From Pseudomonadota bacterium (GTDB lineage: Bacteria > Pseudomonadota > Alphaproteobacteria > Rhizobiales > Xanthobacteraceae), in contig JAJYAH010000195.1 of the NCBI GenBank assembly GCA_021779635.1, forward strand, positions 1 through 9,927: DNA of 9,927 nt, read 5' to 3'. Positions 1-9,927 of the stretch are shown here, piece after piece. A program made the position numbers and the translations under genes. Within the stretch, counting starts at the first letter, position 1. Each line of letters starts with the position of its first letter. The notes under the pieces were generated by a model, which saw nothing but the letters and a program-made list of their open reading frames with translations, had not been told where the DNA came from and made no database searches.

Positions 1-1184
1 CGATCCCAGCAGCCGGGAAGCTGGACCCAAATATTGAAGCTCAACATATCGCTCTTGTGCATTCCCTTCGGCAATGTTTCCGAGACGAGCCTCTGCCGCG
101 CGGTCGTCTCGCTGCGTATGAACCGGAGCATCGTATCGGCGGTGCCGTCTTCGATCCATCGCGTTACCAGGGCGACGGTCAGCGGCGATGCCATGACCGT
201 GGCGGCGCGAAGTGCTGCTGCGAATGGCCATATCGAACGGGTATCGGGCACCACGACGTAAGCGGCGCGAAGTCCGGCACCAATGCATTTGGCCAAACCG
301 GCGACATGCCAAGTGAGATCCGGCGCGATTGCGGCGAATGGCGCATGGCCGTGCGCGGGGATAAAACCATAGGCATCGTCCTCGACGATCGGAAGTTTGA
401 AGCGTCGTGCCGTAGCTGCGATATCGCGCCGCCGCTGATCGCTGATCGTGATGGTGGTCGGGTTTTGCAATGTCGGATTGAGATACAGCGCTTTCGGATT
501 CAGTTTCTTGCAGGCCTCGGCGACGGCACCAACGTCCACGCCTTCGGCATCCATCGGCAAGCCGACCAGTTGCAGGCCGAGTTGCGCCGCGATCGATCGA
601 ATCCCGGGATAGGTCAGCGCTTCGCAAAGCACGACATCGCCCGGCCTCGCGAGAATGGTAAGAATCCCGAGCAATGCCGGATGGGCGCCGGGCGACACGA
701 AAATCCTTTCCTGCGCGGGCACCAAAGCGCGCCGGCCCAGCCAGCTCGAGGCCGCGTCCTTGTCGGCCTGCGTGCCGCCGAAGCCCTGATAGCGCAGCAG
801 CGCAACGATATCGCGCGACACATATTCCATGCCTGCCTGCATCCGTTCGATCAACTCGGGATCGTCCGGCTCAGGCGGAAGATTCATCGAAAGATCGACC
901 GGACGCGGCGGCGGCATTTGCTGGCCACGTCGTGGCCGCGGCCTGTCGCGAACAAAAGTGCCCTGCCCGACCTTGGATTCGATCAGGCCTCGCTTGCGGG
1001 CTTCGACGTAGCCGCGCGCCACTGTCGTGAAATCGACATCGAGACGCTTGGCAAGCTTGCGCTGCGGCGGCAGCCGGTCTCCGACCGCAAGTCTGCCGGC
1101 TCCAATGTCGGTTGCGATGGCCTCGGCGATGGCGAGATAACGCGGTTTGTCACTGGTCGTGAGGTCGGGCGTCCACTCGGCCAT
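1..1184 (-). CDS. MocR-family transcriptional regulator (GntR HTH + aminotransferase-like domain), C-terminus cut by window edge
   Basis: An uninterrupted minus-strand frame runs from an ATG at 1184 to the window edge, giving 394 codons without a stop. Residues about 12-80 form a GntR-type winged helix, including PPQRKLAKRLDVDFTTVARG and a GLIESKVGQGTFV wing. A short proline/arginine-rich linker (about 80-100) follows, then a fold-type I aminotransferase domain. Visible PLP-site features are LNPTLQNPT (235-243), VEDDAYG (267-273, D270 expected to contact the pyridine nitrogen) and the Schiff-base lysine K299 in GLAKCIGAGLR. MocR proteins are typically about 450-500 residues, so roughly the last 60-100 are missing here, including the usual carboxylate-binding arginine region. 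It acts as a cytoplasmic DNA-binding regulator, with PLP or a PLP-amine adduct as the likely effector in this family. It is divergent from the Nit1C operon, so it probably controls itself and possibly that operon. The start is supported by a weak GAAAG upstream and by the onset of the winged-helix domain. It could also be called a PdxR/GabR-like protein; the specific ligand is unknown. Confidence 0.93.
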   Translation of the reverse strand, partial: MAEWTPDLTTSDKPRYLAIAEAIATDIGAGRLAVGDRLPPQRKLAKRLDVDFTTVARGYVEARKRGLIESKVGQGTFVRDRPRPRRGQQMPPPRPVDLSMNLPPEPDDPELIERMQAGMEYVSRDIVALLRYQGFGGTQADKDAASSWLGRRALVPAQERIFVSPGAHPALLGILTILARPGDVVLCEALTYPGIRSIAAQLGLQLVGLPMDAEGVDVGAVAEACKKLNPKALYLNPTLQNPTTITISDQRRRDIAATARRFKLPIVEDDAYGFIPAHGHAPFAAIAPDLTWHVAGLAKCIGAGLRAAYVVVPDTRSIWPFAAALRAATVMASPLTVALVTRWIEDGTADTMLRFIRSETTARQRLVSETLPKGMHKSDMLSFNIWVQLPGCWD

Positions 1185-1211: not shown

Positions 1212-1298
1212 ATTGACTGCATATTGTTGCGTATAGGATTTTTTGCCAGAAGTTTCAATCGTGGATTTAAGACGCGCGCTGGCGGCAAGGATTGACGG
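1212..1298 (+). repeat. Two ATTGAC(T/G)G boxes on the MocR side of the control region
   Basis: ATTGACTG occurs at 1212-1219, downstream of the predicted MocR transcription start. ATTGACGG occurs at 1291-1298, upstream of that promoter. The first is identical to the box at 1420-1427 next to the Nit1C promoter. Short AT-rich octamers can recur by chance, so these are candidate MocR or activator binding sites only. Confidence 0.35.
1230..1258 (-). promoter_or_regulatory. Putative sigma70-type promoter of the MocR gene
   Basis: On the minus strand TTGAAA (plus 1253-1258) is separated by exactly 17 bases from TATACG (plus 1230-1235). That is 5/6 and 4/6 matches to the housekeeping hexamers with ideal spacing. 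The predicted start of transcription is near 1223, leaving a leader of about 39 bases before the ATG at 1184. An ATTGACTG box at 1212-1219 lies just downstream of the predicted start, an arrangement that would suit autorepression. The promoter is inferred from sequence only. Confidence 0.5.
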
Positions 1299-1330
1299 TT
1301 TTCAATACGCTTTGCTCATCGCAAATGCAC

Positions 1331-1457: not shown

Positions 1458-1473
1458 TGGCACATCCGTTGCA
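1458..1473 (+). promoter_or_regulatory. Sigma54 (RpoN) -24/-12 promoter of the Nit1C operon
   Basis: The sequence reads C-TGGCAC-ATCCG-TTGCA-A. The GG (1459-1460) and GC (1471-1472) are separated by ten bases, the invariant spacing for sigma54 promoters. Against the consensus YTGGCACG-N4-TTGCW only the G after TGGCAC differs. Transcription should start near 1484, giving a leader of about 41 bases that contains the strong AAGGAG at 1513-1518 before the ATG at 1525. It is correctly oriented and placed for the first gene of the cluster. An ATP-dependent enhancer-binding protein is required, and none is encoded in this window. Confidence 0.85.
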
Positions 1474-2052: not shown

Positions 2053-3114
2053 ATGGCCGAGAAACAAATCGTCAGGGTTGCCGCGGTGCAGATCGCACCC
2101 GATCTCGATACGCCGACGGGGACGCTCGATCGCGTTCTCGCGGCGATCGCGGAAGCCGCAGCCAAGGGAGCCGGACTTGCGGTTTTTCCCGAAACGTTCG
2201 TGCCCTGGTATCCCTATTTCTCTTTCATCCGTCCGCCGATGCTAAGCGGCGCCGAACACATCCACCTCTACGATAACGCGGTCGTCGTTCCCGGCCCCGT
2301 CACCGAAGCGGTGGCCGCGGCGGCCCGCAAATACAACATCGTGGTCGTGCTCGGTGTCAACGAGCGCGACCACGGCACGCTGTACAACGCCCAGCTGATC
2401 TTCAACGCCAACGGCGCGCTGGTTCTGAAGCGCCGCAAAATCACGCCGACATTTCACGAGCGCATGATCTGGGGTCAGGGCGATGGCTCCGGCTTGAAGG
2501 TTGTCGACACCGCGGTCGGGCGCATCGGCGCGCTGGCTTGCTGGGAACATTATAATCCCCTCGCCCGCTATGCACTGATGGCCCAGCACGAAGAGATTCA
2601 CGTTGCCCAGTTCCCGGGCTCGCTGGTCGGCCAGATCTTCGCCGACCAGATCGAGGTGACGATCCGCCATCACGCGCTTGAGAGCGGCTGCTTCGTCGTC
2701 AACGCCACCGGTTGGCTCAGCGAAGACCAGATTGCCAAGATTTCGCCCGAGGAAGGACCGCGCAGCGGAATCCGCGGTGGCTGCATGACCGCCATCATCT
2801 CTCCCGAGGGCAAGCACATTGTTCCGCCGCTCACCTCCGGCGAAGGCATCCTGGTTGCCGATCTTGACATGGCGCTGATCGTCAAACGCAAGCGCATGAT
2901 GGACTCGGTCGGCCATTACGCGCGGCCAGAACTGCTGTCCCTGCTATGGGACGATCGCCCGGCGATCCCGCTCCACCTGTCACGTGCCGCACCGTCCCTC
3001 TTCACCTCCGGAGGACAATCCGATGAAGCCCATTCTGGTGCACGAACAACCGAAGTCGATGCCGACCGAGCAGCTGATCAACGAGTTGCAATCCTTCGGA
3101 GTTCGTCTCGTTGA
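2053..3114 (+). CDS. nitC: Nit1C nitrilase (Sll0784/NitC-type, carbon-nitrogen hydrolase family)
   Basis: This protein of 353 residues hydrolyses a nitrile to carboxylate and ammonia. It carries the full nitrilase triad: E47 in [15 protein letters not shown]129 in LKRRKITPT and C163 in [10 protein letters not shown]. The conserved second glutamate follows in [13 protein letters not shown] (E136). C-terminal family features include [10 protein letters not shown] and [12 protein letters not shown]. It is cytoplasmic with no signal peptide. In Nit1C clusters of pseudomonads the equivalent NitC is required for assimilating cyanide-derived nitriles. The Synechocystis enzyme Sll0784 has reported activity on aromatic and aliphatic nitriles, so the substrate here is not certain. 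GGAGAG at 2041-2046 supports the ATG at 2053. The last 30 residues (about 324-353) are translated from DNA that also encodes the start of the radical SAM gene. They look low in conservation, as if an earlier stop was lost. Confidence 0.96.
3010..3015 (+). promoter_or_regulatory. Shine-Dalgarno site fixing the radical SAM start inside the nitrilase gene
   Basis: GGAGGA at 3010-3015 lies 7 bases before the ATG at 3023. It is the strongest ribosome site in the area and argues against the in-frame upstream ATG at 2984, which has no comparable site. It therefore supports a real 92-base overlap between the nitrilase and radical SAM genes. Confidence 0.75.
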
Positions 3115-4159
3115 TCCCAAGGCTGCCGGCGACAGCCGGCGCGGCGGGGCCGGCCCCTCCGATCACATGCCGATGACGATCGACGACGCGACCGTGATGA
3201 TCCCGGTCCACAATGCGCCGGCATTCGAGAGTCCGTACATCGTCGACAAACCGGATGCGCTGGGCCGCAGCCAGGTCAGCCGTGACGGCGCTGTGATCGG
3301 CGAAGTGAAATTCCAGCTCCGGCCGCGCTTTTACGAACGCTCGACGGCTGACGGCATTCCCTATTCGAAAATTGCAACGCTGCACGGCCGCGATGTGCTG
3401 GCGACGACGATCCTGCAAGCCTGCATCCGATATCAAAGCCGTACCAAGACCTGCCAGTTCTGCGCCATCGGCCAATCCCTCGCCGCCGGCCGGACCATTG
3501 AACGCAAGACGCCGGAGCAACTCGGCGAAGTTGCCCGCGCGGCCGTCGAGCTCGATGGCGTCACCCATATGGTGATGACAACCGGAACGCCGCCAGGCCG
3601 CGACCGAGGCGCCATGATCCTGTGCGAAAGCGCGCTGGGCGTCAAAGCGGCGGTCGATCTTCCGATCCAGGGACAATGCGAACCACCCGACGACGACATC
3701 TGGTTTCAGCGAATGAAGGACGCCGGCATCGATTCACTCGGCATGCATCTGGAAGCCGTCACCGAGCGGGTGCGTCAGCGCATCATGCCGGGAAAGGCAC
3801 AGGTTTCGGTGCAGCGATACTTCAGGGCGTTCGAGGCGTCGGTGCCGGTCTTCGGACACGGCCAGGTCTCGACCTATATCCTAGCCGGACTCGGCGACAG
3901 CCAAAAAGAGATCCTCGACATTTGCCAGCGGCTCGTCGGCATCGGCGTTTACCCCTTCGTGGTGCCGTTTGTGCCTATTGCAGGCACGCCGCTGGAAAGC
4001 CACCCGACGCCATCTCCGGCCTTCATGCATGAAATCCTCGGGCCGCTGGCAAAAATCCTGCGCGAGGGAGGTCTGAACTCCGGCGACATCAAGGCGGGCT
4101 GTGGCAGATGCGGCGCCTGCTCGGCGCTTTCGACTTACGAGAAGAGAGTGTCGGCATGA
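3023..4159 (+). CDS. nitD: MSMEG_0568-family radical SAM protein (NitD) with CX9CX2C motif
   Basis: This protein of 378 residues is counted from the ATG at 3023 behind GGAGGA. The N-terminal part carries the family signature [11 protein letters not shown] (38-48), followed by a beta-rich stretch. The [4Fe-4S]/SAM-binding cysteines are C134, C144 and C147 in [18 protein letters not shown], a CX9CX2C spacing instead of the canonical CX3CX2C. Downstream are a TIM-barrel-like core with [23 protein letters not shown] and [20 protein letters not shown], and a final CGRCGAC (C360, C363, C366) near the C-terminus. The last motif could bind a second cluster or a metal. The substrate is unknown. Nit1C clusters always pair this protein with the nitrilase and a GNAT enzyme. 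The stop overlaps the GNAT start by 4 bases (ATGA), indicating coupled translation. Confidence 0.95.
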
Positions 4160-4704
4160 TCTTCGAACCCTTCAAGCCGTTTCTCGCCAGCGCCTACCAG
4201 ATCAAATTCGCGACCGAAGCATGGGAGAAACGCGGCGCTGCCACCCTGCGCCAACAAGTGTTCTGCGTCGAACAGGGACTATTCGACGGCGACGATCGCG
4301 ACGCGGTCGACGACATTGCGATTCCTCTCGTGGCGATTTCCCTGTTCGGCGTGGCCGCGGATGCTGTGGTCGGCACCGTTCGCATCCACCAGCATCCGGA
4401 GGATCCGGGCGTCTGGTGGGGTTCTCGGCTGGCGGTAACCGGGCAGTATCGCCGTCTCGGCGCCGTTGGCGCCGGCTTGATCCGACTTGCCGTGGCCTCG
4501 GCGCATGCGCGCGGCTGCCACACCTTCCTCGGCAACATCCAGAGCCAGAATGCCGATTTGTTCCATCACATGCACTGGCGAACGCTCAACGAAGTCGAAC
4601 TGTACGGCAAGCCGCATCACATGATGCAGGCCGACCTCGATTTCTATCCGCCATTCCTGCAACCCGAGGTCGGCTTTCTGTCGCTACCGAAGCTGGCCGC
4701 GTAA
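4156..4704 (+). CDS. nitE: MSMEG_0567-type GNAT N-acetyltransferase (NitE)
   Basis: This protein of 182 residues belongs to the GNAT fold family, which usually transfers an acyl group from acyl-CoA. The segment LRQQVFCVEQGLFDGDD (31-47) is the usual N-terminal GNAT 'R-x-VF-x-x-EQ' region. VVGTVRIHQHP (71-81) forms strand 4, and RLAVTGQYRRLGAVGAGLIR (91-110) is motif A with the acetyl-CoA pyrophosphate loop (RRLGAVGA). The family stretch GCHTFLGNIQSQNADLFHHM (120-139) follows. The ATG at 4156 overlaps the radical SAM stop as ATGA, with GAGAAGAGAG shortly upstream. An in-frame ATG at 4108 would add 16 residues and overlap the previous gene by 52 bases, so it is less likely. In Mycobacterium smegmatis MSMEG_0567 this domain is fused to the AIR-synthase-like domain; here the two are separate genes sharing one base. 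Acceptor substrate unknown. Confidence 0.93.
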   Translation: MIFEPFKPFLASAYQIKFATEAWEKRGAATLRQQVFCVEQGLFDGDDRDAVDDIAIPLVAISLFGVAADAVVGTVRIHQHPEDPGVWWGSRLAVTGQYRRLGAVGAGLIRLAVASAHARGCHTFLGNIQSQNADLFHHMHWRTLNEVELYGKPHHMMQADLDFYPPFLQPEVGFLSLPKLAA

Positions 4705-5699
4705 TGATGGGCTCGCTCGCTATATCCGCGCTTGCGCAGCGGCTCCGATGCAGCAAAGGCATCGCAGCCAAGAGCGACATCGCGTCGGTCGCGCGATCGC
4801 TGGGCCTGTCGGGTGTCGGCGTCATTCCGGTTGGTGACGATTGTGCCGCGATCCCCGACGGCGACGGTTATCTGCTGTTCGCCATCGAAGGCTTCATGAA
4901 CGAATTCGTCGCCGGCGATCCATGGTTCGCTGGCTGGTGCGGCGTCATGGTCAACATATCCGACATCGCTGCAATGGGAGGACGGCCGGTCGCCGTCGTC
5001 GATGCGATCTGGGCGAATGGCGAAGCCGAGGCCGCGCCGGTGCTGGCCGGTCTGAAAGATGCGGCGAAGGCCTTTGGGGTTCCCGTCGTCGGCGGACACA
5101 CCAACATCCGCACCGACCGTGGTCAGCTGTCAGTCGCGATTCTCGGCCGCGCCAGCAAGCTGTTGACCAGCTTCGACGCATCGCCCGGCGACAGATTGAT
5201 CGCGGCCGTCGATCTGCGCGGCCGTTACCGCGAGCCGTTTTCGAACTGGGAAGCCGCGACCCACGCGCCGCATTCGCGCCTGCGAGGCGACCTCGAACTA
5301 TTGCCCGCGATCGCGGAAGCCGGCTTGTCGCGCGCCGCCAAGGATATCAGCCAGGGCGGCATCGTCGGCACCGCGGCCATGCTTGCGGAATGCTCCGGCG
5401 TCGCCATCGACATCGACCTTGAGGCGGTTCCGAAACCCGATGGCGTCGCGCTCGAGCGCTGGCTGCTGACGTTTTCGAGCTTCGGCTATTTGCTCTCCGT
5501 CAAGCCGTATGATGTGGCCGAGGTGATGTCCCGCTTTACGGCGCGCGGAATCGCCGCCGCCGATATCGGCACGGTCGGACATGGGAACCGCCTTACCGTC
5601 GGCGACGGCATTGCATCCGAAACGATCTGGGATTTTGCGCAGAAGCCTTTGATCGGCGCCGGACCACCGTCACCAGTCATGGTCGAGGCGGTGGCATGA
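4704..5699 (+). CDS. nitF: Sll0787-family AIR-synthase-related protein (NitF)
   Basis: This protein of 331 residues is homologous to the PurM/ThiL/SelD/HypE superfamily, ATP-using enzymes that activate amides, phosphates or similar groups. Visible features are VGDDCAAI (43-50, nucleotide and metal-binding GDD), MVNISDIAAMGGRP (82-95), VVGGHTNIR (128-136) and AAKDISQGGIVGTAAMLAEC (211-230). SFGYLLSV lies in the C-terminal half. The N-terminal KSDIASVARSLGL resembles the leader helix of ThiL/HypE-type proteins. It is soluble. The ATG at 4704 shares one base with the preceding TAA (TAATG); a second ATG at 4707 is equally possible. There is no strong ribosome site, so initiation probably depends on ribosomes finishing the GNAT gene. 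The phosphorylated or adenylated substrate is unknown. Its end overlaps the glycosyltransferase start as ATGA. Confidence 0.94.
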   Translation: MMGSLAISALAQRLRCSKGIAAKSDIASVARSLGLSGVGVIPVGDDCAAIPDGDGYLLFAIEGFMNEFVAGDPWFAGWCGVMVNISDIAAMGGRPVAVVDAIWANGEAEAAPVLAGLKDAAKAFGVPVVGGHTNIRTDRGQLSVAILGRASKLLTSFDASPGDRLIAAVDLRGRYREPFSNWEAATHAPHSRLRGDLELLPAIAEAGLSRAAKDISQGGIVGTAAMLAECSGVAIDIDLEAVPKPDGVALERWLLTFSSFGYLLSVKPYDVAEVMSRFTARGIAAADIGTVGHGNRLTVGDGIASETIWDFAQKPLIGAGPPSPVMVEAVA

Positions 5700-6862
5700 T
5701 CGCAAGCAACCGGCCTCCGCGAACTGCCATCCTGGTCCACTCCACCAATCCTCGTGGAGGCGTCGTTCACGGGCTCGAATTGGCTGACAGCCTCAGCCGG
5801 CTTGGTTATGAGGCGGTGATTCATGCGCCTGACGCCAGCGGCAAGGGATTCTTCCGGGCGCCGCTGTCGCCTGCGATTGCTGTGATGGCTTCCCCGGTGG
5901 GCAGGAACGTCGCGGAAATGGTGCAAGCGCGCATCGCCGACTATGTCGGGCATTTCGAGCTGCGGGCCAACCGGCAATTCGACGTCTTTCATGCGCAGGA
6001 TTCGATCTCGGGTAATGCGCTGGCGACCTTGAAGCAGCACGGCTTGATCCGGCGCTTTGCGCGCACCGTCCACCATATCGACAGCTTCCAGGATCGCTGC
6101 CTCAGCGATTGGCAAACGCGCTCGATTACCGAGGCTGACGAATTGTTCGTTGTGAGCGAGCTCTGGCAATCCCGGATCATGGCGGAATTCGGCCGCGCCT
6201 CCACCAAGGTCGGAAACGGGGTCGATACCGAACGCTTCACCAACAATGCCCGCGCACTCGACCAGCAAGTGCGGAATCAATATGGCATCAACGGATGCCC
6301 GGTGCTTCTTTCCGTGGGCGGCGTCGAGGAGCGCAAGAACAGCCTTCGAATCCTTGAAGCGTTCCGGCAGCTATTGCGAATTCATCGGGATGCCCAACTC
6401 GTAATCGCCGGCGGTGCATCGCTACTCGATCACGCGGTGTATCAACGACAATTCGTCGCCTTGATCGCGGCAGACAGCGAGCTCAGCCGCGCCGTCGTTT
6501 GCCTCGGTCCGGTCCGGGATTCTGAAATGCCGTCACTGTACCGGATCGCCGACGCGCTGGTGTTTCCGTCCGTCAAGGAGGGCTTCGGCCTTGTCGTTCT
6601 GGAGGCGATGGCGAGCGGCACGCCGGTGGTCACCTCGCGGATCGCGCCGTTCACCGAATATCTCGGTACCGACGACGTTGTCTGGTGCGACCCCCTGAGC
6701 GTGGCGTCGATCGCCAATGCCGTGGCGATCGTTCTGGCCGAACCGCTGCATTCGAGGATGGCGCAGCGCGGCACGCTGATCGCGCGGCAGCATGACTGGA
6801 ACAACACCGCACGAGCGCATCTGCCGGCCTATCAGAAGCTGATGGAGCTGCAGCATGCCTGA
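5696..6862 (+). CDS. MSMEG_0565-family glycosyltransferase (GT4, GT-B fold)
   Basis: This protein of 388 residues has the GT-B layout. The N-terminal Rossmann half begins AILVHSTNPRGGVVHGLELA (11-30) and contains FDVFHAQDSISGNAL and VHHIDSFQD (125-133). The C-terminal half has KVGNGVDTERF (171-181), LLSVGGVEERKN (204-215) and LVIAGG. The GT4 signature KEGFGLVVLEAMASGTPVV carries the E-x7-E pair E295/E303 that binds the nucleotide-sugar diphosphate and ribose. No membrane segment is visible, so it is probably cytosolic or peripheral. Donor sugar and acceptor are not predictable. A glycosyltransferase inside a nitrilase/radical SAM operon suggests a glycosylated small-molecule intermediate rather than plain nitrile catabolism. 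It overlaps the upstream gene by 4 bases and the downstream gene by 8. Confidence 0.94.
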   Translation: MIASNRPPRTAILVHSTNPRGGVVHGLELADSLSRLGYEAVIHAPDASGKGFFRAPLSPAIAVMASPVGRNVAEMVQARIADYVGHFELRANRQFDVFHAQDSISGNALATLKQHGLIRRFARTVHHIDSFQDRCLSDWQTRSITEADELFVVSELWQSRIMAEFGRASTKVGNGVDTERFTNNARALDQQVRNQYGINGCPVLLSVGGVEERKNSLRILEAFRQLLRIHRDAQLVIAGGASLLDHAVYQRQFVALIAADSELSRAVVCLGPVRDSEMPSLYRIADALVFPSVKEGFGLVVLEAMASGTPVVTSRIAPFTEYLGTDDVVWCDPLSVASIANAVAIVLAEPLHSRMAQRGTLIARQHDWNNTARAHLPAYQKLMELQHA

Positions 6863-7142
6863 GATGCTGTTTCAGATTCGCTGGCCGGACGGCGCGATCG
6901 AACAATGCTATTCGCCATCGCTGGTGATCCGGGATTATCTCACCGTCGGCGAAACCTATAGGGTGCCGGAATTCCTGCAGCGCAGCCGCACCGCGCTGAC
7001 CATCGCCAGCGCTCGCGTAAGGGAAAAACACGGCTTCGCCTGCTCGCGGGCGATGGCACAGCTTGCAAGGCTTGAAGCCGCCGCCGGTCGTTTCGACGAC
7101 AGGAGCGGCGATCGCGTCACCGTCATATCCTTCCACGAATAG
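6855..7142 (+). CDS. nitG: MSMEG_0570-family small nitrogen-starvation response protein (NitG-type)
   Basis: This small protein of 95 residues starts MLFQIRWPDGAIEQCYSPS and contains DYLTVGETYRVPEFLQRSRT (27-46) and a helical segment rich in alanine and arginine (ARVREKHGFACSRAMAQLAR). These stretches are diagnostic of the MSMEG_0570 family, found only in Nit1C-type clusters. There is no signal peptide, membrane segment or recognisable catalytic motif. Size and position suggest an accessory or binding subunit. GGAG at 6844-6847, inside the end of the glycosyltransferase gene, supports the ATG at 6855. The 8-base overlap with that gene indicates coupled translation. The equation with pseudomonad NitG rests on gene order, so the symbol is less certain than the family. 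Confidence 0.9.
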   Translation: MPEMLFQIRWPDGAIEQCYSPSLVIRDYLTVGETYRVPEFLQRSRTALTIASARVREKHGFACSRAMAQLARLEAAAGRFDDRSGDRVTVISFHE

Positions 7143-7156
7143 ACCAGGAACGTCAC

Positions 7157-8443
7157 ATGACAAATTCATCACTTCCCTCGCACGCCAGCGTTGTCATCAT
7201 CGGCGGCGGTCAGGCCGGTCTCGCCATGAGCTATCATCTCAGGCAGAGCGGCATCGATCATGTCATTCTGGAGAAGCACCAGATCGCTCATTCCTGGAAG
7301 ACCAAGCGCTGGGACGCCTTTTGCCTGGTGACGCCGAACTGGCAGTGCCGGCTTCCGGGATATCCCTATCAAGGCAGCGACCCCAAGGGTTTCATGCTGC
7401 GCGACGAGATCGTCGCCTATATCGAGAATTACGCCAGGCACATCTCCGCACCGGTCAGGGAAGGCGTCGCCGTCACCCGCCTGAAGCAGGATGCAGATGG
7501 CGGATTTGCGCTTGAGACCAGCGCGGGCGAGGTGACGGCGGAAGCCGTGGTGCTCGCGGTCAGCGGCTATCACGTGCCGAACGTGCCCCGGATGGCGGAC
7601 CGGCTCGACGGATCGGTGACGCAGTTGCATTCCGTCGCCTATCGCAGCCCGGCGCACTTGCCGCCGGGTGAGGTCGTGGTGATCGGCAGCGGCCAGTCCG
7701 GCTGCCAGATCGCCGAAGACCTGCATCTGGCGGGACGCAAGGTGCACCTCGCCGTCGGCAGCGCGCCGCGATGCCCGCGGGTCTATCGCGGCCGCGATGC
7801 CGTCGAATGGCTCGACGATCTCGGTCAGTACGACCTGCCGGTCGATCAGCACGGCCTGAAGGAGAAGGTCCGCAAGAACGCCAACCACTATCTGACCGGA
7901 CGGGATGGCGGCCGCGATATCGATCTGCGCAGGTTTGCCCTCGAAGGGATGTCGCTGTACGGCCGGCTCAGGGATGTCGAGGGCGGGCGGCTGATATTTG
8001 CCGACGACCTTGCGAGAAATCTCGACAATGCCGATCGCGTCTATAACGGCATTTGCGGCCTGATCGACGATCACATCGCGCGCAACGCCATCGATGCGCC
8101 GGCCTCGCCGCATTATGCACCGGTATGGACCCCGACCGACACGCCCGCCGAACTCGATCCGTCGAAGGCCGGCATCTCCACGATCATCTGGACCACCGGC
8201 TTCCGGTCCGACTGGTCGTGGGTCGAGCTGCCGATTTTCGACGGCACCGGCTATCCGACCCATCGCCGGGGCGTGACGTCGATGGACGGCGTCTATGTGC
8301 TCGGCCTGCCCTGGCTTTACACCTGGGGCTCGGGACGCTTTGTCGGCGTCGGCCGGGATGCGGCCTATGTGACCCAGCATCTGCTGGGCAACTCCGCGGC
8401 ATCAAGGAGCGCCAGCCAACGATTGGCGGCCAGCGCCGCGTGA
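7157..8443 (+). CDS. nitH: MSMEG_0569-family FAD-dependent oxidoreductase (NitH)
   Basis: This flavoprotein of 428 residues is built like flavin-containing monooxygenases. An FAD Rossmann motif VVIIGGGQAGLAMS (12-25) is followed by the family stretch HSWKTKRWDAFCLVTPNW (45-62). A second dinucleotide motif VVVIGSGQSGCQIAEDL (173-189) probably binds NAD(P)H. The C-terminal segment VYVLGLPWLYTWGSGRFVGV (379-398) closes the FAD site. No signal peptide is evident. It is the last gene of the cluster, 14 bases after the small-protein gene, with AGGAA near 7146-7150 as the ribosome site. It likely oxidises a cluster-specific substrate using NAD(P)H and oxygen; the analogue NitH lies at the same place in pseudomonad Nit1C operons. 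Its stop is 3 bases from the stop of the convergent reductase gene. Confidence 0.94.
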   Translation: MTNSSLPSHASVVIIGGGQAGLAMSYHLRQSGIDHVILEKHQIAHSWKTKRWDAFCLVTPNWQCRLPGYPYQGSDPKGFMLRDEIVAYIENYARHISAPVREGVAVTRLKQDADGGFALETSAGEVTAEAVVLAVSGYHVPNVPRMADRLDGSVTQLHSVAYRSPAHLPPGEVVVIGSGQSGCQIAEDLHLAGRKVHLAVGSAPRCPRVYRGRDAVEWLDDLGQYDLPVDQHGLKEKVRKNANHYLTGRDGGRDIDLRRFALEGMSLYGRLRDVEGGRLIFADDLARNLDNADRVYNGICGLIDDHIARNAIDAPASPHYAPVWTPTDTPAELDPSKAGISTIIWTTGFRSDWSWVELPIFDGTGYPTHRRGVTSMDGVYVLGLPWLYTWGSGRFVGVGRDAAYVTQHLLGNSAASRSASQRLAASAA

Positions 8444-8446: not shown

Positions 8447-9220
8447 TCAGCGCTCCGCAAATGCCTTCTCGACCACGAACTGTCCGGGCTCGCCGTGATT
8501 GCCTTCGCCGAAGCCCTTGCCGAGCAGAAGCGCCCGGGTGTCGTGAACCAGAGCAGGACTGCCGCAGATCATGACGCGATCGTGGTCGGCTTCAAGCTGC
8601 GCCACGCCAGCGTCGCTGAACAATTTGCCTGATGTGATCAGGTCCGTGATGCGGCCGCGATTGCGGAACGGATCGCGCGTCACGGTGGGATAGTAGATCA
8701 GCTGGTTGCGCACCAGGTCGCCGATCAATTCGTCTTTCGGCAGCTTCTCGGTGATCATCTCGCCATAGGCGAGCTCGGCGACGCGGCGGCAGCCGTGCAG
8801 CAACACCACCTTTTCAAAGCGCTCGTAGGTCTCCGGGTCCTTGATCACGCTCAGGAACGGCGCGAGCCCGGTGCCGGTGCCGATCAGATAGAGATTGCGG
8901 CCGTCCTCGAGATTGTCGATCACCAGCGTGCCGGTCGCCTTGCGGCTGACGATCACCTCGTCGCCTTCCTTCAGATGCTGGAGCCGCGAGGTCAGCGGCC
9001 CGTCCGGCACCTTGATCGAGAAGAATTCCAGCCGGTCCTCGTAATTGGCGCTGGCGACGCTGTAGGCGCGCAGCAGCGGCTTCTCGCCGACCTTCAGGCC
9101 GATCATGGTGAATTCGCCATTGCGGAACCGGAACGAGGATTCGCGCGTGGTCGTGAAGCTGAACAGGGTGTCGGTCCAGTGATGGACGCTGAGGACGCTT
9201 TCCAGATTGAAATTGCTCAT
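8447..9220 (-). CDS. fpr: Ferredoxin-NADP(+) reductase, bacterial subclass I type
   Basis: This protein of 257 residues moves electrons between NADP(H) and ferredoxin or flavodoxin through FAD. The FAD-binding motif LLRAYSVAS (49-57) is in the N-terminal barrel. The NADP domain has LIGTGTGLAPFLSVIKDPE (112-130), QLIYYPTVTRDPF (173-185) and VMICGSP (216-222). The C-terminal VEKAFAER matches the extended bacterial FPR tail that stacks near the flavin (Rhodobacter and Azotobacter type, ending in EKAF). Length is normal for the family and no residue appears missing. AGCGGA precedes the ATG at 9220. It is transcribed toward the Nit1C flavoprotein and away from the enamidase-like gene, with which it shares a control region. 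It may be a general housekeeping FPR or may supply reduced ferredoxin to a pathway encoded to the right. Confidence 0.96.
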   Translation of the reverse strand: MSNFNLESVLSVHHWTDTLFSFTTTRESSFRFRNGEFTMIGLKVGEKPLLRAYSVASANYEDRLEFFSIKVPDGPLTSRLQHLKEGDEVIVSRKATGTLVIDNLEDGRNLYLIGTGTGLAPFLSVIKDPETYERFEKVVLLHGCRRVAELAYGEMITEKLPKDELIGDLVRNQLIYYPTVTRDPFRNRGRITDLITSGKLFSDAGVAQLEADHDRVMICGSPALVHDTRALLLGKGFGEGNHGEPGQFVVEKAFAER

Positions 9221-9378: not shown

Positions 9379-9927
9379 ATGGCCCATGACGCACCCCAGG
9401 CAGCCGGCCCGACAAAACTGGTGATCCGCAATATCGGCCTGCTGCTGAGCGGCGCGATGGAGAAACCGATCCTCGATGCCGATACGATTCTGGCCGAAAA
9501 CGGCAGGATCACCGCGATCGGACGGGCTGGGGATATCAATGCCGAGGGTGCGACGACGGTCATCGATGCCAACGGAACCACCGTCACGCCGGGCCTGATC
9601 GACAGCCATGTTCATCCCGTCGCCGGCGACTGGACGCCGCGGCAAAACCAGATCGGCTGGATCGACAGCTTTCTCAACGGCGGCGTCACCACCATGATCT
9701 CTGCCGGCGAGGTTCACATGCCCGGCCGGCCGCGCGATGTGGTCGGCGTCAAGGCGATGGCGATTTTCGCGCAGCGCGCGTTCGATAATCTCCGCCCCGG
9801 CGGCGTCAAGGTCCATGCCGGCGCGCCGGTGATCGAACCCGGCATGGTCGAGGAAGATTTCAAGGAATTGGCCGCGGCCGGCGTCAAGCTGCTTGGCGAA
9901 GTCGGACTCGGCGGCGTCAAGGACGGA
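9379..9927 (+). CDS. Enamidase-like amidohydrolase, C-terminus cut by window edge
   Basis: The visible 183 residues run to the right edge. The N-terminal beta domain (LVIRNIGLLLSG, ADTILAENGRITAIG) leads into TVTPGLIDSHVHP (68-80) with the metal ligands H77 and H79, then GGVTTMISAGEVHMPGRPRD (101-120). LLGEVGLGGVKD carries E174. As I recall it, Eubacterium barkeri enamidase matches almost stretch for stretch (GGVTTMISAG, PGRPKD, GVKVHGGA, GEVGLG), and its bridging metal ligand is a glutamate at the equivalent place instead of carbamylated lysine. That enzyme hydrolyses 6-oxo-1,4,5,6-tetrahydronicotinate to 2-formylglutarate and ammonia in nicotinate fermentation. The substrate in this organism could be another cyclic amide or enamide. 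AGAAAGGA at 9363-9370 precedes the ATG at 9379. Roughly 200 C-terminal residues, including other metal ligands, lie beyond the window. Confidence 0.88.
   Translation, partial: MAHDAPQAAGPTKLVIRNIGLLLSGAMEKPILDADTILAENGRITAIGRAGDINAEGATTVIDANGTTVTPGLIDSHVHPVAGDWTPRQNQIGWIDSFLNGGVTTMISAGEVHMPGRPRDVVGVKAMAIFAQRAFDNLRPGGVKVHAGAPVIEPGMVEEDFKELAAAGVKLLGEVGLGGVKDG

Follow-up and report, generated by a model that had tools for sequence, protein, structure and literature searches.

The closest described system is the nitA-nitBCDEFGH (nit1C) cluster of Pseudomonas oleovorans/pseudoalcaligenes CECT 5344, where, according to the passages available, NitA is a Fis-family sigma-54-dependent regulator encoded divergently from nitBCDEFGH (PMC11049912; also PMC6368324, PMC5333837). 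The locus analysed here lies in a window of 9,927 nucleotides, by which we mean the whole stretch of DNA that was examined, and it shares with that system the same operon, a divergent regulator gene and, as seen in a sample of pseudomonad genomes, the -24/-12 promoter. The difference is that the CECT 5344 regulator, as described in those passages, is a Fis-family sigma-54 activator, whereas the window has a MocR-type regulator together with a probable NtrC enhancer. A second likeness is found in the Pseudomonas hut operon, where, in the part of the paper available, the sigma-N promoter region of hutU is acted on by the GntR-family protein HutC as well as by NtrC and CbrB (PMC8871633), so that a GntR-family regulator sharing such a promoter with general activators has a close precedent there; in that operon the HutC sites overlap the activator sites, unlike the MocR half-sites predicted in the window. 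Among the named MocR-type proteins, the EnuR/EhuR regulators of ectoine use are the closest family to the one in the window, which scores 373 against 480, and EnuR is described as acting through an operator of another kind at a sigma-70-type promoter, unlike the case here (PMC8739950, in the passages available). Finally, the quenching of sigma-54 enhancers by a protein bound between enhancer and promoter is reported to tolerate shifts of 10-11 bp and not shifts of 5-6 bp, in synthetic enhancers and Vibrio qrr genes and with no MocR protein mentioned in the part available, unlike the window (PMC4740811). The parts considered below are thus of known kinds, and within a limited literature coverage we found no report of their combination: titles and beginnings of abstracts, with most subscription papers outside the search, gave no report of a MocR protein joined to sigma-54 at such a promoter; no literature joining NtrC and nit1C was found, the first nit1C papers, from 2012 and 2018, lying outside the search; and in the main text of a survey of MocR regulons (PMC5320631), the portion of that source available, the string "nitril" is absent.

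In the window the Nit1C operon is complete and in order, with eight products above the curated family cut-offs, all encoded on the forward strand: nitB (1525-2007, TIGR04044), the nitrilase gene nitC (2053-3114, TIGR04048), nitD for a radical SAM protein (3023-4159, TIGR04043), and the genes for an N-acetyltransferase (4156-4704, TIGR04045), an AIR synthase-like protein (4704-5699, TIGR04049), a glycosyltransferase (5696-6862, TIGR04047), a small MSMEG_0570-family protein (6855-7142, TIGR04042) and a flavin-dependent oxidoreductase (7157-8443, TIGR04046). The operon probably serves to obtain nitrogen from nitriles or cyanide. The start of nitD overlaps the end of nitC by 92 bases (3023-3114) in the window, and by 41 bases in annotated Klebsiella and Pantoea copies. 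Downstream lie a ferredoxin-NADP-reductase-like gene on the reverse strand (8450-9220) and, on the forward strand, the start only of an amidohydrolase-like gene (9379-9927), with a score below the Pfam cut-off. Scans of the window for Rfam families and for tRNAs gave no matches.

The sigma-54 site upstream of nitB is genuine. The first-pass annotation had described a near-perfect site, TGGCAC-N5-TTGCA, before the first gene, and it is indeed present as TGGCACATCCGTTGCA at 1458-1473 on the forward strand, with no mismatch to TGGCAYN5TTGCW, the -24 GG at 1459-1460 and the -12 GC at 1471-1472 having the GG-N10-GC spacing inside TGGCAY-N5-TTGCW. No other perfect match exists on either strand of the window; 200 dinucleotide shuffles of the window gave a mean of 0.03 perfect matches, and at least one match in 5 of the 200. 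From the position of the -24/-12 element, transcription is predicted to start at about 1484; 51 bases separate the last base of the promoter from the ATG of nitB (1525), which is preceded by AAGGAG at 1513-1518.

The element is also conserved. A scan with the nitB protein gave 499 relatives, of which the best 80 were taken, so that deeper lineages lie outside the coverage; 14 of these 80 loci are cyanobacterial, and the remaining 66 together with the window make 67. Among these 67, TGGCAY-N6-TGC stands within 130 bp of the nitB start codon in 64, the window included, with 9-11 of 11 consensus letters and starting 52-113 bp ahead of nitB, despite divergent flanks (single-base shuffles served as controls for element conservation). 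By contrast with these 64, none of the 14 cyanobacterial loci among the best 80 reaches 9 of 11 letters. In a separate sample of 398 genomes, reached via a genome that matched OprF strongly and taken to be Pseudomonadaceae, the first Nit1C gene is present in 21, and all 21 loci carry the -24/-12 element. Control of Nit1C by RpoN, as the first-pass annotation had proposed, is thus strongly supported. Of 13 genomes tested, 10 gave a match to the sigma-54 DNA-binding family; none was found in two cyanobacterial genomes and in that of L077, a locus which is one of the three non-cyanobacterial ones among the best 80 without the element. The other two, L046 and L080, are real exceptions, since their genomes have rpoN and yet show no promoter match before nitB. 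L046, L080 and L204 (two Novosphingobium loci and Aureimonas) keep the MocR half-sites described below in the absence of -24/-12, and may use another promoter type. It could be argued from these three loci that the -24/-12 match is fortuitous and that the MocR protein controls an unseen sigma-70 promoter, an explanation which we consider highly improbable, as it leaves the narrow distance of the element in 64 of 67 loci (best 80 of 499) with diverging flanks, and its presence in all 21 pseudomonad loci, without a cause.

As to the activator, opening of a sigma-54 promoter requires an AAA+ protein. The gene divergent from nitB in the window (3-1184, reverse strand, its 3' end beyond the window) encodes a product in which the domain search found a GntR winged helix and an aminotransferase domain only, with no match to an AAA+ domain; lacking this domain, the protein should not by itself open the promoter. 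It has the features of the MocR subfamily, namely the GntR winged helix and the aminotransferase-like domain with the PLP lysine, and its best-matching named model is EhuR at 373.1 bits, below the cut-off of 480. HutC, the GntR-family protein of the hut operon, belongs to a different GntR subfamily without the aminotransferase domain. A MocR homologue of 43-88% identity, divergent from nitB, is found in 61 of the 80 loci (best 80 of 499), that is, in 61 of the 66 non-cyanobacterial ones. All 61 homologues share, without variation, the PLP-site lysine 299, the two NP pairs and the EDD motif, so that the window protein likely binds PLP, as judged from these residues. The five non-cyanobacterial loci without a divergent homologue are three from Methyloversatilis, L077, where no MocR homologue was found in the available stretch, and L079, whose contig extends only 483 bp beyond nitB on the upstream side, too little to show a mocR. 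The Methyloversatilis genomes do have a MocR homologue, of 50% identity. In one of them (L066) mocR lies past nitH on the operon's strand in the same contig (L203, 3232-4620, reverse strand), and the half-sites still stand before nitB although mocR is not divergent.

The pseudomonads differ in the regulator. In 20 of the 21 pseudomonad loci nitB has a divergent neighbour with the GAFTGA motif, which shows that the search works where the motif is present; no such protein was found in the 81 loci made up of the window and the best 80 of 499, several of which have little upstream DNA. The tandem half-site pair is found in none of the 21 pseudomonad loci; single weak half-sites occur in four, in one case at a lattice position. 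The earlier statement that a sigma54-type regulator called NitR is reported beside pseudomonad nit1C clusters thus stands as to the kind of protein, the name in the cited passages being NitA (PMC11049912, PMC6368324, PMC5333837). The suggestion drawn from it, RpoN together with a dedicated activator of that kind, is supported for this window in its sigma-54 part and not supported in the other, no GAFTGA motif being found in the window and the neighbour being of MocR type. The best reading is that pseudomonads carry the dedicated activator NitA in place of an arrangement of MocR with NtrC.

The evidence for NtrC comes from the upstream DNA of the group. With the half-sites masked, motif discovery without a prior motif over -250 to -92 in 57 loci recovered the palindrome cGCaCca-N3-tgGtGCg, with a log-likelihood of 155 versus 26, 29 and 35 in three single-base-shuffled sets; this palindrome we take to be the NtrC consensus. 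At least 10 of the 14 letters of the NtrC consensus are reached in 24 of 52 non-redundant loci versus 4.1 expected from first-order Markov chain resampling, and in control stretches of the same loci by 1 of 52, 0 of 52 and 2 of 51. The best matches of the loci are scattered over -102 to -234, in relatives mostly about -155 to -235. At 10 of 14 letters none of 13 cyanobacterial loci has a match, and none of 21 pseudomonad loci, where 0.8 would be expected by chance and only 8 loci are non-redundant, so that the absence in pseudomonads carries little weight. In the window, a weak NtrC-like dyad, TGCTCATCGCAAATGCA (1313-1329, forward strand, centre at -163), lines up with TGCACACCGATCGTGCG and similar, better copies in relatives. 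It agrees with a short NtrC consensus at 8 of 10 letters, which 5.5% of 200 shuffles equal or better, and with the longer one at 8 of 14 letters, about the shuffled mean, so that alone it is no better than chance. From the window alone, the first-pass annotation was fair in seeing no clear NtrC site; the motif across relatives points to NtrC, which that annotation had set aside.

The glnII gene is under NtrC control, and in five Bradyrhizobium genomes its locus shows a sigma-54 site that is conserved, along with only 7-9 of 14 NtrC letters; because these controls are equally degenerate, the 14-letter consensus is not informative in Bradyrhizobium. Ammonium-transporter loci were a poor control in alphaproteobacteria, a sigma-54 score of at least 10 being reached in 0 of 17. 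In the genome of L001, the closest match among the best 80 of 499 (nitB 94% identical), NtrC is present above the cut-off, and the strong PF00158 matches are all on contigs other than that of Nit1C. NtrC is therefore the natural candidate, being present in that genome, with no strong PF00158 match on the Nit1C contig and its motif enriched in the group, and we infer it as the activator in this organism from these sequence data. The L001 genome has other PF00158 proteins as well (one strong match, L083, was left out of the classification), and with the weak site of the window this could speak for an unlinked, specialised enhancer-binding protein other than NtrC; we regard this as improbable in view of the enrichment of the NtrC-like palindrome across the group and of NtrC in the L001 genome.

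Between this region and the -24 box lies a second conserved feature. Motif discovery in 53 of the 67 loci (from the best 80 of 499), after removal of redundancy, revealed a tandem repeat, tTGATcGCA-n-aTTGATcGCAT, immediately before the -24 box, with a log-likelihood of 565 versus 74 in one single-base-shuffled set. The strict half-site ATTGANYGNA stands ahead of the -24 box in 68 of 69 promoter-bearing loci, five of them from plasmids, a presence that is partly built in because the matrix was drawn from the same loci, while the spacing is not built in; the only exception is L079, and these operator counts exclude L204 as well as L046, L077 and L080, which have no -24/-12. Across 41 clusters, the start of the innermost half-site falls exclusively at -52 to -55, -63 to -65, -74 to -78 and -87 to -88, a lattice of about 11 bp (R 0.89 at 11.5 bp). 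A GATC-N7-GATC palindrome from the short-word dyad scan, which was also controlled by single-base shuffles, was rejected, as it is the 11-bp period of the MocR repeat. On the forward strand of the window the predicted half-sites are ATTGAATGCAT (1397-1407) at -87, ATTGAATGTAA (1409-1419) at -75 and the weaker ATTGACTGTTT (1420-1430) at -64; a weak inverted one, seen in several Bradyrhizobium relatives, is predicted at 1386-1396 on the reverse strand. A further predicted half-site, ATTGACTGCAT (1212-1222, forward strand), near the mocR start, probably reflects autoregulation of mocR. Between the half-sites and the -24 box, TTGTGCAGAAC at 1441-1451 is conserved in most Bradyrhizobium-group loci, and TTTGTGCAAAATC, which resembles it, is present in L070 and L206.

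The repeats are tied to mocR. Among 31 further loci (L121 being the same locus as L055, and L152-L154, L205 and L206 also falling within the 69-locus count), all nine with a MocR match carry half-sites, and no tandem pair is found in the other 22, namely L123 and those of the pseudomonad sample, which show no MocR match in the stretch available. In the class of L055's genome only 4 of 369 sampled genomes were above the cut-off; of the three loci newly read from it, L122 and L124 have half-sites and L123, which has a promoter of 10 of 11 letters, shows neither a MocR match nor a half-site and is a single case. In five Bradyrhizobium genomes a looser 20-base operator pattern matched at Nit1C in four and once elsewhere, and a reversed control pattern gave zero matches in the same genomes; a first, stricter pattern was too strict, with no match anywhere in them, Nit1C included. 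The match elsewhere, in L202, has 1 mismatch, and no -24/-12 is seen in the stretch available there. Binding of the MocR protein to the tandem ATTGANYGNA repeats is what we infer from this co-occurrence.

We propose a model in which Nit1C would be transcribed by sigma-54 RNA polymerase from 1458-1473, with NtrC, bound to the upstream dyads, as the most likely promoter-opening ATPase, so that nitrogen starvation would arm the operon. The divergent PLP-type MocR protein, on the tandem repeats at -87/-75/-64 between the enhancer and the -24 box, would gate the contact of NtrC with the polymerase according to a small amino-compound ligand, most likely blocking it without ligand, and would also control its own gene. 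The model takes up what can be read in the DNA itself, that is, the promoter, its conservation, the phased repeats with their tie to mocR, the group-wide NtrC-like motif and the different pseudomonad regulator, while the sign and the ligand of the MocR protein are as we suppose them. The model as a whole, with NtrC activating and MocR gating in between, we hold to be rather probable.

In a different version with the same anatomy, MocR would be a helper that with its ligand bends the DNA or touches the polymerase from -53 to -87 and strengthens the initiation driven by NtrC, much as IHF or ArgR act at other sigma-54 promoters. The strict helical phasing would fit a face-specific contact, the half-sites do not overlap -24/-12, and several studied MocR proteins activate, many of them divergent genes (PMC5320631, in the part available). 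Quenching of the loop, as far as the available passages go, predicts phasing too, sigma-54 enhancers with a protein in between tolerating changes of 10-11 bp and not of 5-6 bp, with which the lattice fits (PMC4740811). Moreover, repression is what the passages available describe for the MocR protein of the pseudomonad cio/nit4 cluster (PMC8567248) and for EnuR (PMC8739950), because of which we favour gating and think the helper role possible though unlikely.

With gating, the switch may depend on two simultaneous signals. More generally, it is tentatively conceivable, at somewhat less than even confidence, that a PLP-sensing MocR protein on a helical lattice gates sigma-54 enhancer looping in a widespread two-key switch, for which pseudomonads have one dedicated activator. 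The locus offers a testable control circuit for nitrile and cyanide nitrogen assimilation outside the pseudomonads and, if the model is true, a natural many-species experiment on a ligand-sensing protein that gates sigma-54 enhancer-promoter contact, the gating geometry predicting that shifts of 11 bp would be tolerated and shifts of 5 bp would not. It is also noted that the first Nit1C gene occurs on 515 plasmid records of a plasmid collection, 374 from Klebsiella and 30 from Escherichia, and that the two enterobacterial plasmids examined, from Pantoea and Klebsiella oxytoca (L152, L153), carry a divergent MocR-type gene, a perfect -24/-12 element and a half-site at -53.
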